Source: Tessaracoccus sp. SD287
GTDB taxonomy: Bacteria; Actinomycetota; Actinomycetes; Propionibacteriales; Propionibacteriaceae
DNA: 64,000 nucleotides
Assembly: GCF_017355265.1 (NCBI RefSeq)
Contig: NZ_JADIJQ010000002.1
Coordinates: forward strand, 62,001 to 126,000
Direction of reading: 5' to 3'
Of this stretch, positions 45,877 to 54,882 are shown piece by piece. Made by a program: the position numbers and the translations under genes. The notes under the pieces were generated by a model. That model saw only the letters and a list, made by a program, of their open reading frames with translations, did no database searches and was not told the origin of the DNA. The first letter of the stretch is position 1; each line of letters begins with the position of its first letter.

Positions 45877-46112
45877 GGGGGTCCTCCCTGCTGGGCAGGT
45901 GGTGCAACGGGGATGGGCTGCGGTTTGTTCCGGGGGTTCCACGATTGCACAGCCCGACGACACCTGCGGCTGATCCGGCGGTGTTGTCCAGCCGCAAGTC
46001 ATCGGGATGGCGAGGGCATCCTCACTGCGCGTGGAGTGCCGCCCGTTGCGTGGTTCGCAGGCCTTTCAGGGACCCGTGCCTAGTGCCACATATCGCGGCA
46101 TTCTGCTTTTTG

Positions 46113-46129
46113 ATACCCCCATGGGGTAT
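46113..46129. promoter_or_regulatory. CsoR-type operator upstream of the copper ATPase
   Basis: ATACCCCCATGGGGTAT is a near-perfect palindrome (ATACCCC-CAT-GGGGTAT) of the GC-tract type bound by CsoR-family repressors. It overlaps the likely -10 (TATATA or TATAGT, 46127-46134) and lies 25 bases before the start codon. Confidence 0.75.
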
Positions 46130-46153
46130 ATAGTCAGGACAGAAGGGAGCGAT

Positions 46154-48394
46154 ATGTCCAGACAGAAGCACGACCAGCACGACCAGCACGAGCAAGAGGG
46201 CCATGGGCATCAGGGCCACGGGCACCACCCGGCTGAGGGCCACGGGCACCACGTGACCACAACCCCCCGAACCGGGAGCGTTCCCCCGGGCACCGAATGG
46301 ACCTGCCCCATGCACCCCGAGATCCGGCGTGACGGTCCCGGGTCCTGCCCGATCTGCGGCATGGCGCTGGAACCGGCCATCTACGACCCCGACGCCGGAC
46401 CCAACCAGGAACTCATCGACATGCGCCGCCGGTTCTGGATCGGGGCCGCACTCACCATCCCGCTGCTGGCGATGGCCATGATCCTGCCGCTGCTCGGCAT
46501 CGAGATCGGCCTGTCGGGGGCCGCCAACCAGTGGGTCCAGTTCGCGCTGGCGACCCCGGTCGTCTTCTGGGCGGGGTGGCCGTTCTACGTCCGCGCCGCC
46601 GCGTCGATCAGGAACCGGTCGCTGAACATGTTCACCCTGGTCGCCCTCGGCGTCACTGCGGCGTGGACCTACTCCACGGTGGGCCTGCTGTGGCCCGGCG
46701 TCTTCCCCGAGTCGATGCGCGTGATGGACGGACGCCCCGAGCCCTACTACGAGGCGGCCGCGGTCATCACCGTGCTGGTCCTGCTCGGACAAGTCCTCGA
46801 ACTCCGTGCCCGGGAATCCACGTCGGGAGCGATCAAGGCGCTGATGGACCTCGCCCCAGCCCAGGCCCGCCGGATCAACTCCGACGGCACCGAGACCGAC
46901 GTCGACCTGGCCGACCTGGTCGTCGGCGATCTGGTCCGGGTGCGGCCCGGGGAGAAGGTGCCAGTTGACGGCTCGGTCACCGACGGCCGCTCGAGCATCG
47001 ACGAGTCCATGGTCACCGGTGAGTCGCTGGCCGTCTCGAAGCAGGCGGGCGACCGCGTCGTGGGCGGCACCGTCAACGGCAACGGCAGCCTGGTCATCCG
47101 CGCCGAACGTCTCGGGTCCGACTCGTTGTTGTCGCGGATCGTCGCCATGGTCGGCGAGGCGCAGCGCTCGCGCGCCCCCATCCAGTCCCTGGTCGACAAG
47201 GTCTCGGCGGTCTTCGTCCCCGTCGTCATCGGCATCGCGCTCATAGCCTTCGTCATCTGGCTCCTGGTCGGGCCTGAACCACGCCTGCCGCACGCCCTGG
47301 TCGTGGCCGTGTCCGTGTTGATCATCGCCTGCCCCTGTGCGCTGGGTCTGGCCACGCCCATGTCGATCATGGTCGGGGTCGGACGAGCCGCGCGGGCCGG
47401 CGTGCTGGTCAAGAACGCCGAGGCGCTGGAGGTCATGCAGCAGGTCGACACCGTGGTGGTCGACAAGACCGGCACCCTGACCCAGGGCGCGCCGACGATC
47501 ACGGTCATCGAGACCCTCGCCGAACTCGCCGAGGACGAGGTGCTGGCGCTGGCCGCGGCCGTCGAGCAGCACTCCGAGCACCCGCTGGCCCAGGCCATCG
47601 TCACCGGCGCGCGCGACCGTGACCTGACCATCCCTGCGTCCACCGACTTCACCTCCGAGGCAGGCGGCGGTGTCCGCGCCGAGGTGGGCGGACGCTGGGT
47701 CAGCATCGGCAATGCGGACTACGTCTCTGCACCCGAGGCCGCCGAAACCGCGGCTGACCAGCTGCGGGGTGAGGGCGCCACGGCCGTCCACGTCTCGGTC
47801 GACGGGCAGGTGGTTGGCGTGCTGGCGATCGAGGACCCGGTCAAGCAGACCACCCCCCGCGCCATCCAGGCGCTGCACGCCGCCGGCATCCGGCTGGTGA
47901 TGCTCACCGGCGACAACCAGACCACCGCGGACGCCGTCGCCCGACGCCTGGGCATCGACGAGGTCCGCGCCCAGGTGCTTCCCGAGGACAAGGGGCGGGT
48001 GATCGAGGACCTCAAGGCGCAGGGGCGGACGGTGGCCATGGCCGGCGACGGCGTGAACGACGCCCCCGCACTGGCCACCGCCGACGTCGGCATCGCCATG
48101 GGCACCGGCACCGACGTGGCCATGGAGAGCGCCGGGGTCACCCTGCTCGGCGGCGACCTGGTGGGGATCGTCCGGGCGCGGACCCTGTCACGGGCCACCA
48201 TGGCCAACATCAGGCAGAACCTCATCTTCGCCTTCATCTACAACGTGATCGGCATTCCGGTCGCGGCCGGGGTGCTCTACCCGTTCCTGGGGGTGCTGCT
48301 CTCGCCCATGATCGCCGCGCTGGCCATGGCGCTGTCGTCGGTGAGCGTCATCACCAACGCGGCCCGACTGAATCGGGTCACGCTGGAGCTGTGA
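46154..48394 (+). CDS. copA: Copper-translocating P1B-type ATPase
   Basis: 746 residues from the ATG at 46154 with GAAGGGAG upstream. The first 35 residues are His/Gly/Gln-rich, then [20 protein letters not shown] (Cys51, Cys65, Cys68) forms a heavy-metal-binding domain instead of the usual HMA domain. Eight membrane helices include the CPC motif ([13 protein letters not shown]), with the actuator TGES (MVTGESLAV), phosphorylation [16 protein letters not shown] nucleotide motif and [10 protein letters not shown] hinge. CPC points to Cu(I)/Ag(I) export (P1B-1); the His-rich start is more like CopB. A CsoR-type operator in front supports copper-induced expression. Confidence 0.9.
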
Positions 48395-52278: not shown

Positions 52279-54882
52279 ATGGACGCTGTGACCACGCAGA
52301 TCTCGCTCACCACCCCCGAGCCCACCACCGGACGCCCCGCGCGCAGCTCCTGGCATCGCCGCGCCTCACGCCCAGTGATGTTCTGGATGGCGGCGCTGGT
52401 GGTCCTGGTGGTCGTCCATCGCTGGATTCCACAGTCACGCTGGCTGCTGGTGCACATGGCCACCCTGGGCATCGCGGCGAACTCGATCATGATCTGGGGT
52501 CAGCACTTCGCCGACTCGGTGCTGCGCACGCGCCATGACGACGCGGCCCGCGACCTGCAGGTCTGGCGCCAGCGGACGCTCAACCTCGGCATCGTCGTCA
52601 CCATCGTCGGCATGGTCGTCGGCTGGCCCGTGGTCACCACCGTGGGGGCCACGGTCGTCGGACTGGCCTTCACCTACTACGCCCTGCAACTGGTCGCCCA
52701 GGCGCGCAAGGCCCTGCCGGGCCGGTTCGGGCACGTCGCCCGCTGGTACGTCGCGGCCGCCCTGCTGCTGCCTCTGGGCGCCGCCGCCGGCGCCGTCATG
52801 TCGTTCTCGATGCCCGAACCGTGGCAGGGCCGACTGATGATCGCCCACGTGGTGCTCAACGTGCTGGGCTTTGTCGGGTTGACGGCCACCGCCACCCTGC
52901 TGACCCTGTGGCCCACCATGCTGCGCACCCCCATGGAACCGTGGAGCGAGCGACTGCACCGCGTGGCGCTGCCGCTGATGCTGGCCGGTGTCCTGGTCAC
53001 CGCCGCCGCGGCCACGGTGGGCTGGCGCTGGGTCACCCTCGCCGGACTCGTGGTCTGGATGACCGGCTTCGGCTGCGCCATCACCCCCGCGATCTCGACG
53101 GCCATCCGCAAGCCGCCGCGCGACTTCCCCACCTGGTCGGTGGGCGCGGCCATCGTCTGGATCGCTGGCTGCGTGTGCTGGTTGGCCTGGCAGGTGCTGA
53201 CCCACCCGCTGCTGGACGCCGAGCACATCAAGCAGGTCACCGCGCCGCTGATCGTGGGCGGGCTGGTGCAACTGGTGCTGGGCGCCATGAGCTACTTGAT
53301 GCCGGTGGTGATGGGCGGCGGTCCGCGGATGACCCGGGCCACCAATGCGGTGATGAACCGCGCCGGCGCGCTGCGGGTCTCGGTCGCGAACGCTGGTCTG
53401 GTCGCCTTCCTGCTGGCCGAGTCCTCCTGGGCACGGGTGGTCACCTCGCTGCTGGTGTTCGTCGCCCTGGCCTCGTTCCTGCCGGTGATGATCGCCATGG
53501 TCGCCACCATGAGAAAGGTCCGCGGACAGCAGGCCGAGGAGTCCGCCAAGGACCTGCCGGCCGCCCGCAAGGGTCTGGAGGAGCAGGCCGCCGCGGCGTC
53601 CGAGCAGAGTCGCCGCGACCTGCTGGGGGCGGGCGTTGGCATCGCCGGGGTGGCGGCCGCGCTGTACTGGCTCGACCGCGACGCCACCAGCTCACCCCGG
53701 GCCGCGGACGTCCCCGCCACCGGACGCACCGTCGAGGTGGACGTGGCCTGCGTCGAGATGCGCTTCGTCCCCGACCACGTCCAGATCGCCGCCGGGGACC
53801 GGCTGGTGGTGCACCTGGTCAACGACGACCCCGCACAGGTCCATGACCTGCGCTTCGAGAACGGGGTCGACAGCGGACGGCTTGCCCACCGGCAAACGGC
53901 CACCCTGGACGTGGGGGTGGTCGGGGCACCGCTGGAGGGGTGGTGCACCATCGTCGGGCACCGGGCCATGGGCATGGTCTTCCACGTCCGCACCGACGGC
54001 ACCGCCGCCGCGCCGACCATCGATCTGGGGGCGGCACCGGGCGCCGGCTACGTGACCCGGGACGCGGTGCTGCCCGAGCCGCGGTCGGGGTCCTTCGAGC
54101 TCGACCTGGTCGTCCAGGAGAGCGTGCAGGAGGTGGCACCCGCCACGACCCAGCACGCCATGACCTACAACGGACGGGTGATGGGCCCGGCCGTCGTGGC
54201 CGCGCTCAACACCCAGATCATGGTTCACCTGACCAACAACGGCGCCATGGGCCACAGCGTCGACTTCCACGCCGGGGACGTGTCCCCCGACCAGGTGATG
54301 CGGACGATCCCACCGGGCGAGTCGCTGGACTACCCGTTCACCACTAGGCGGTCGGGCATCTGGCTGTACCACTGCTCGACGATGCCGATGTCGGCGCACC
54401 TGGCCGCCGGCATGTACGGCGCCGTGGTGGTGCCCCCCGCGGGGCTGGCGGCGGTGGACCGGGAATACCTGCTGGTGCAGCAGGAGGCCTACCTCGGACC
54501 AAACGGCGGCGAGGTCGACACCACCAAGATCGCCGACGAGGACCCCGACCTGATCCTGTGGAACGGGCACGCCAACCAGTACATGCATGAGCCGCTGACC
54601 GCGCGCGTCGGTGAGCGGGTCCGGTTGTGGGTGCTGGCCGCGGGTCCCTCGCGCGGCACCACCTTCCACGTCGTCGGTGGCCAGTTCGACACCGTCTTCA
54701 AGGAGGGCGAGTGGCTACTGCGCCCCAATGCCCACTCCGGTGGCGCCCAGGCGCTGGACCTCGGCCCCTCCCAGGGCGGCTTCGTCGAGATGGTGTTCAC
54801 CGAACCGGGCAACTACACGTTCGTGAACCACTCCTTCGTCGACGCCGAGCGGGGCGGCCGGGGCATCATCCGGGTGACGTGA
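52279..54882 (+). CDS. nirK: Membrane-cupredoxin-copper nitrite reductase fusion (NirK-type)
   Basis: 867 residues from the ATG at 52279; a GTG three codons later is possible and no ribosome site is seen. Residues 1-415 have about 11-12 membrane helices with several His (HMATLGIAANSIMIWGQHF). Residues 480-570 are a blue-copper domain with His522, Cys556, His561 and Met566. Residues 600-867 are a two-domain CuNIR: type 1 copper His659, Cys699, His707, Met712; type 2 copper His664, His698, His851; catalytic Asp662 and His797, in GHSVDFH, YHCSTMP, FHVVGGQFD and FVNHSF. All key residues are intact. It would reduce nitrite to NO outside the membrane with electrons passed through the cupredoxin. 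A nitrite source or NO reductase is not in the window. Confidence 0.88.
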   Translation: MDAVTTQISLTTPEPTTGRPARSSWHRRASRPVMFWMAALVVLVVVHRWIPQSRWLLVHMATLGIAANSIMIWGQHFADSVLRTRHDDAARDLQVWRQRTLNLGIVVTIVGMVVGWPVVTTVGATVVGLAFTYYALQLVAQARKALPGRFGHVARWYVAAALLLPLGAAAGAVMSFSMPEPWQGRLMIAHVVLNVLGFVGLTATATLLTLWPTMLRTPMEPWSERLHRVALPLMLAGVLVTAAAATVGWRWVTLAGLVVWMTGFGCAITPAISTAIRKPPRDFPTWSVGAAIVWIAGCVCWLAWQVLTHPLLDAEHIKQVTAPLIVGGLVQLVLGAMSYLMPVVMGGGPRMTRATNAVMNRAGALRVSVANAGLVAFLLAESSWARVVTSLLVFVALASFLPVMIAMVATMRKVRGQQAEESAKDLPAARKGLEEQAAAASEQSRRDLLGAGVGIAGVAAALYWLDRDATSSPRAADVPATGRTVEVDVACVEMRFVPDHVQIAAGDRLVVHLVNDDPAQVHDLRFENGVDSGRLAHRQTATLDVGVVGAPLEGWCTIVGHRAMGMVFHVRTDGTAAAPTIDLGAAPGAGYVTRDAVLPEPRSGSFELDLVVQESVQEVAPATTQHAMTYNGRVMGPAVVAALNTQIMVHLTNNGAMGHSVDFHAGDVSPDQVMRTIPPGESLDYPFTTRRSGIWLYHCSTMPMSAHLAAGMYGAVVVPPAGLAAVDREYLLVQQEAYLGPNGGEVDTTKIADEDPDLILWNGHANQYMHEPLTARVGERVRLWVLAAGPSRGTTFHVVGGQFDTVFKEGEWLLRPNAHSGGAQALDLGPSQGGFVEMVFTEPGNYTFVNHSFVDAERGGRGIIRVT

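Follow-up and report, generated by a model that had tools for sequence, protein, structure and literature searches.

The window, i.e. the whole stretch of 64,000 nucleotides from Tessaracoccus sp. SD287 that was analysed, contains at 52279–54882 on the + strand an open reading frame with its ATG at 52279 and its stop codon at 54880–54882, coding for a single chain of 867 amino acids. The gene is present in one copy in the source genome, on contig C12. The following features were assigned, with the basis given in parentheses:

52279..54882, + strand: whole gene, in the order membrane module, helix 13, cupredoxin, copper nitrite reductase (CuNIR), 867 aa (frame and translation)
52342..53547, + strand: 12-helix membrane module, residues 22–423 (AlphaFold, CcoN superposition, conservation)
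53608..53673, + strand: SRR-D-L-L motif and 13th helix, residues 444–465, candidate internal twin-arginine signal anchor (full-length model, tatC in the genome)
53722..54006, + strand: cupredoxin domain, residues 482–576 (PF13473, 2dv6 alignment, invariance)
54076..54879, + strand: CuNIR core, residues 600–867 (TIGR02376, PDB matches, invariance)

Since full-length members of the family were found in many genomes, the frame is neither a chance frame nor an assembly join. The nearest relatives of the chain are proteins from Cutibacterium, Acidipropionibacterium and Brachybacterium, and relatives are spread over many actinobacterial genera (Cutibacterium, Mycobacterium, Rhodococcus, Nocardioides, Rothia, Brachybacterium and others). 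The fused nirK stands alone in its surroundings: the two genes upstream look, from their sequences, like those of a Tm-1-type protein and a TIM-barrel protein, a gene for a copper-type P-ATPase with an HMBD domain is located about 4 kb upstream (46007–48394), and a PAP2 phosphatase gene lies downstream. A scan for promoters and terminators around the fused nirK returned nothing. The source genome also encodes NarG, TatC and a qNOR (PF22085 + COX1, 790 aa), so that the NO reductase for which the earlier, sequence-only reading of this DNA had suggested a search is present.

The C-terminal half of the chain was assigned by profile and structure-database searches. The CuNIR profile TIGR02376 matched the frame at E 3.7e-41, with a score of 141.5 bits below the curated cut-off of 296 bits; other fused actinobacterial proteins score in a similar range, and the missed cut-off reflects the equivalog model, not the enzyme. 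The cupredoxin profile PF13473 matched at E 1.1e-5, and the best PDB match, the cupredoxin-CuNIR protein 2dv6, spanned both copper domains (residues 481–866, E 1e-38). In the CuNIR core, the type 1 copper ligands (H659, C699, H707, M712) are present, as are the type 2 ligands (H664, H698, H851) and the catalytic residues D662 and H797, all of the latter five invariant. The cupredoxin domain has a type 1 site of its own (H522, C556, H561, M566). Each copper and catalytic residue was invariant or at least 90% conserved in a 66-row alignment, and the key ones were invariant in about 100 relatives. This bears out the sequence-only reading, which had described intact type 1, type 2 and catalytic residues preceded by a complete blue-copper site. 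By its complete ligand set, the chain is classified as an actinobacterial NO-forming CuNIR.

The fusion had been treated there as new, which it is not: the layout was already known in Actinobacteria before this analysis and is found in many genomes. For Propionibacterium acnes, a NirK of about 900 aa was described whose 400-aa transmembrane domain was termed "of unknown function" (Decleyre et al. 2016, PMC4770552), and the NirK of Corynebacterium pseudotuberculosis (882 aa, about 13 predicted helices) has been reported with its transmembrane part read as membrane association (PMC5338063). The chain shares with the Propionibacterium (Cutibacterium) acnes type the domain order, the size, the transmembrane region of about 400 aa, the cupredoxin motif CX4HX4M, the CuNIR core and the phylum, and is about 52% identical to other Cutibacterium proteins. 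It is thus a new member of an already known NirK group, and the enzyme itself is ordinary. The NirK of Hyphomicrobium denitrificans (2dv6) likewise combines an N-terminal cupredoxin with a CuNIR core, but has no membrane module; its cupredoxin is reportedly too distant for transfer and dispensable (PMC4770552).

The membrane module (residues 22–425, 66 relatives as input) was predicted by AlphaFold with 12 membrane helices, a pLDDT of 94.7 and a pTM of 0.91, in agreement with the 12-helix domain of the sequence-only reading, in which helix 13 (residues 428–469) had gone uncounted. The structure prediction called for there placed the module among known folds: the leading PDB matches in Foldseek were subunit I chains of heme-copper oxidases (CcoN, NorB, Cox1), and VIA-align superposed 380 of 404 residues, with all 12 helices, on CcoN (Z 32.2, rmsd 3.3), followed by NorB (Z 29.4) and Cox1 (Z about 25–28), against a reference level of about 13 for helical bundles without a clear match. 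The modelled fold of the membrane module is therefore that of heme-copper oxidase subunit I. Identity with CcoN and NorB is about 11%, and sequence methods gave little: no family was matched in a Pfam/NCBIfam profile search of the module, no oxidase was found in a sequence search against the PDB (where matches to SemiSWEET, at E 0.05, were discarded as spurious), and hhalign comparisons with NorB and CcoN were not significant.

Links at the profile level were obtained to other membrane proteins. By hhalign, the module was connected at E 3e-6 to a protein without annotation that is encoded in denitrification clusters of Alphaproteobacteria, unrelated membrane transporters reaching E 0.03 or worse. 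A further protein, L113, has Pfam matches to NnrS as well as to COX1 and is closely linked to the module, and was in turn linked by profile-profile comparison to NnrS, NorB and CcoN. It was the single match when 296 genomes of the phylum were searched for NnrS; a plasmid search for NnrS of the L113 type returned two weak haloarchaeal matches. Through L113, NnrS is linked to the same broad superfamily of membrane proteins, but direct comparison of the module with NnrS gave no profile match (PF05940) and an hhalign E of 0.28, which is not significant, and the histidine sets differ, NnrS having kept the canonical registers on helices 2 and 10.

In heme-copper oxidases, the low-spin heme is bound by histidines on helices 2 and 10 and the high-spin heme by a histidine on helix 10, while the copper ligands are histidines on helices 6 and 7. 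CcoN of the cbb3 oxidase and NorB of cNOR share the 12-helix fold with the module throughout, but have the HH pair on helix 7 and the HxH motif on helix 10, both of which are missing in the module, and differ in the register of the histidines on helices 2 and 6. No conserved histidine was found on helices 7 and 10 when the fused relatives and the stand-alone homologs described below were aligned. The low-spin pair of helices 2 and 10 is likewise absent, the helix 10 position being histidine in 0 of 88 rows. Judged from these alignments, the module has lost both the site that reduces dioxygen or NO and the canonical low-spin heme site. With the site ligands absent, the candidate of a cryptic NO reductase was dropped.

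Two histidines have been kept, H59 (helix 2) and H190 (helix 6). Neither varies in 100 fused relatives, and among 22 stand-alone homologs H59 is found in 21 (the remaining row has a gap) and H190 in all. H59 is followed by Gly at +5 in 87/87 rows, H190 by Gly at +7 and Pro at +22 in 88/88 rows. For the CcoN and NorB sequences taken as reference, these spacings are +5 (Gly) and +20 (Pro) at the low-spin histidine of helix 10, and +7 (Gly) and +22 (Pro) at the b3 histidine; the low-spin histidine on helix 2 of CcoN has Gly at +7, a comparison that is based on few reference sequences, NorB being irregular there with its Pro at 21. NnrS has +7/+22 for its helix 2 histidine and +5 for that of helix 10. 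By comparison, the module shows the "5" register at helix 2 and "7/22" at helix 6. H190 was also considered as an oxidase CuB ligand, which was dropped because the CuB histidine sits 20 residues before Pro in CcoN and mostly 5 before Gly in NorB, and H190 lies 22 before Pro and 7 before Gly.

The oxidase fold is viewed as three arcs of four helices each. Helices 1–4 and 5–8 of the module are detectable repeats (E 1e-6) in which H59 aligns with H190, and the registers suggest that the pair corresponds to the low-spin heme pair, moved by one repeat of the pseudo-threefold fold. Since the Gly/Pro spacing matches such a shifted pair, a bis-His heme b is plausible; one b-type heme would then be bound between H59 and H190, in the third pore, which is empty in the oxidases. 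The candidate site plausibly lies towards the cupredoxin, within the outer third of the membrane. Most invariant helix positions fall in helices 2–6. W55, H59, R149, Y157, H190, W294, Q331 (helix 10) and N371 are kept in the stand-alone copies, and H59, H190, Q331, W294, Y157 and R149 are strictly conserved across fused and stand-alone forms. No quinone site was recognisable in the module from residue conservation, nor was a known quinone motif found. The search for heme and quinone sites proposed by the sequence-only reading hence gave an invariant histidine pair in heme-like registers, with neither the canonical ligands nor a quinone motif.

In the full-length predicted model, a long helix (residues 428–469), which is helix 13, precedes the cupredoxin, and is itself preceded in the source chain by the motif SRRDLLGAG. 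Similar twin-arginine motifs recur in the clade of Propionibacteriaceae and Dermabacteraceae. Of 100 rows, 54 have an Arg pair of some kind in the linker, those near the Tat consensus mainly in the clade of the source protein; a reading of the pair as a family-wide Tat signal was dropped, since it is mostly clade-specific. The layout fits that of dual Sec/Tat proteins, with an even number of helices (12), a twin-Arg motif, a last helix and cofactor (copper) domains, and resembles proteins such as the actinobacterial Rieske protein (PMC5449189). The main text of that survey of dual Sec/Tat families is without copper, cupredoxin or nitrite reductase. Given the last helix with its twin-arginine motif, the copper domains of this clade may use Tat: Sec would insert the first twelve helices, and Tat would then export the folded copper domains.

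Across the phylum, the module was found in 41 of 296 genomes, elsewhere than in the fused chain as a separate protein of about 430 aa. Outside the class Actinomycetes, most matches were frames of roughly 410–640 aa without CuNIR, and the module is therefore encoded there by a separate gene. CuNIR (TIGR02376 match, E ≤ 1e-25) was present in 24/33 genomes with a stand-alone module as opposed to 10/255 without a module (odds ratio 65, Fisher p 6e-20, uncorrected for kinship; fused cases and G123, whose region shows no CuNIR, were left out of the table). Among the families with a stand-alone module, 15 of 16 have module and CuNIR together in one genome. In six genomes nirK adjoins the stand-alone module (L108, L180, L182, L190, L191, L204). 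At L190:111-3761, four consecutive genes code for NirK, one cupredoxin, the module and a regulator of the Rrf2 type, as if the fused chain had been taken apart; as the nirK product there has an apparent N-terminal hydrophobic segment of its own, the module is more than an anchor. The surroundings of the module at L183:1128-7184 include genes for an Rrf2 regulator, a nitrous oxide reductase of the Sec type and a type III sulfide:quinone reductase.

In a module tree (quick method, midpoint root, L203 wrongly labelled as fused), the fused forms grouped together with few separate copies among them, and three changes of state were counted, a pattern that fits a fusion made early and broken later in places. 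Two members inside the fused clade (L109:1190-2422 and L111:3973-5271) consist of a module without copper domains or CuNIR in the stretch examined, and look like secondary breaks of the fusion. Whether fused, adjacent or co-occurring, the module stands in a genuine functional partnership with CuNIR.

The alphaproteobacterial homolog extends the comparison beyond the phylum. Its histidines on helices 2 and 6 are invariant and in the 5 and 7/22 registers of the module, with the helix 6 Pro in 4 of 7 rows, but it is separate, unfused and far less module-like than the actinobacterial stand-alone forms. It sits in nirK/nor/nnrS clusters. The examples from Shinella (L133:11135-12493) and Rhizobium etli (L131:11128-12480) code for proteins of about 450 aa without a Pfam family, between DUF2249 genes.

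Neighbouring genes were clustered over 80 loci of the fused gene, using a GC3-weighted gene caller. A hemerythrin-DUF2249 protein was found nearby in 36/80 loci, DUF2249 genes flanking the alphaproteobacterial homolog as well, and a regulator of the winged-helix type, in which Cys (C175, C189 and C221 in L050 numbering) and His residues are conserved, in 34/80 (e.g. L032:6011-6742). This regulator may be of the Fe-S kind and respond to NO. In 18/80 loci (e.g. L028:392-1495), the gene immediately upstream of the fused nirK codes for a second membrane protein without annotation, of about 370–420 aa, which is also encoded at the split locus L108:6912-8174; it showed weak hhalign links, to NnrS-like proteins only. 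These neighbours place the fused gene in a setting of NO and denitrification. Genetic linkage cannot tell electron supply from NO handling.

With a confidence close to even, we regard the chain as an NO-forming CuNIR with its own membrane partner, the latter being an electron-entry module on the oxidase fold that would bind one heme b (H59/H190) and act as a quinol:cupredoxin oxidoreductase. Electrons would pass from menaquinol to the heme b of the module, and from there via the cupredoxin copper and the type 1 copper of CuNIR to its type 2 copper, where nitrite would be reduced to NO outside the membrane. In genomes that also encode a separate quinol-dependent NO reductase, such as the source genome, the NO would be handed on to that enzyme. 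Electron flow from the membrane straight to nitrite in one chain, as put forward by the sequence-only reading, would thus be plausible: the partnership with CuNIR, the respiratory fold and the histidine pair speak for it, and the missing usual heme ligands, the lack of a recognised quinone site and the report on the distant, dispensable cupredoxin of the Hyphomicrobium enzyme against it. The broader form of this reading is held more tentatively and is rather doubtful. It would make the module a new b-type cytochrome on the oxidase fold, with the heme shifted by one third into the empty pore and the O2-reducing site gone, which serves as dedicated quinol:cupredoxin oxidoreductase for CuNIR, as a subunit of its own in many Actinomycetota and as part of the fused chain in the class Actinomycetes; the homolog in Alphaproteobacteria would be the same cytochrome in classical denitrifiers. 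The identity of the membrane part (oxidase fold, histidine pair) is new as far as the searched literature shows, and the fold, the candidate heme pair and the stand-alone partners make a domain of unknown function directly testable. If the module feeds quinol electrons, nitrite would be reduced without the cytochrome bc complex and the soluble carriers of textbook denitrification, and the oxidase fold would have taken on a new use, as an electron-entry cytochrome whose heme has shifted.

The main rival, itself unlikely in our estimate, is that the module binds, senses or removes the NO made by the attached CuNIR, as a relative of NnrS or NO reductase. The fold shared with NorB and the bridging protein L113 agree with this, as do the NO-type neighbours that recur at the fused loci and the nnrS gene that adjoins nirK in Rhizobium, Shinella and Allorhizobium and is divergent from it in Alphaproteobacteria. 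Among genomes of the family or order, 35 have this CuNIR, 20 of them without a qNOR match and 15 with one; a qNOR was found in 16, of which 15 have this CuNIR. The module has none of the NO-reducing site ligands, however, nor the NnrS pattern of histidines, and the cupredoxin placed between module and enzyme favours electron transfer.

Alternatively, the module could be a heme-free scaffold, a degenerate oxidase that anchors or orients the copper domains, with electrons arriving from a separate cytochrome or cupredoxin. This would account for the loss of the canonical heme ligands and for the quinone site not being seen; it would also be in line with published models in which electrons reach NirK via bc1, e.g. 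in Intrasporangium calvum (PMC6349771), and with the dispensable N-terminal cupredoxin of Hyphomicrobium. From a bare scaffold, the strict conservation of the six module residues in fused and stand-alone forms would not be expected, nor the maintenance of the stand-alone protein as a gene of its own beside nirK, and because of that residue conservation we rank it below NO handling. A role in delivering copper or heme for the maturation of the CuNIR or cupredoxin sites appears highly improbable: a copper P-type ATPase is encoded upstream in the window and membrane histidines could carry a metal, but no conserved Cys or Met cluster was found in the module alignment, the histidine pair shares the spacing code of heme ligands, and CuNIR elsewhere does without such a partner.

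On another contig of the source genome (G000:C56:39384-52764), narG and a DUF2249 gene were found about 10 kb apart.
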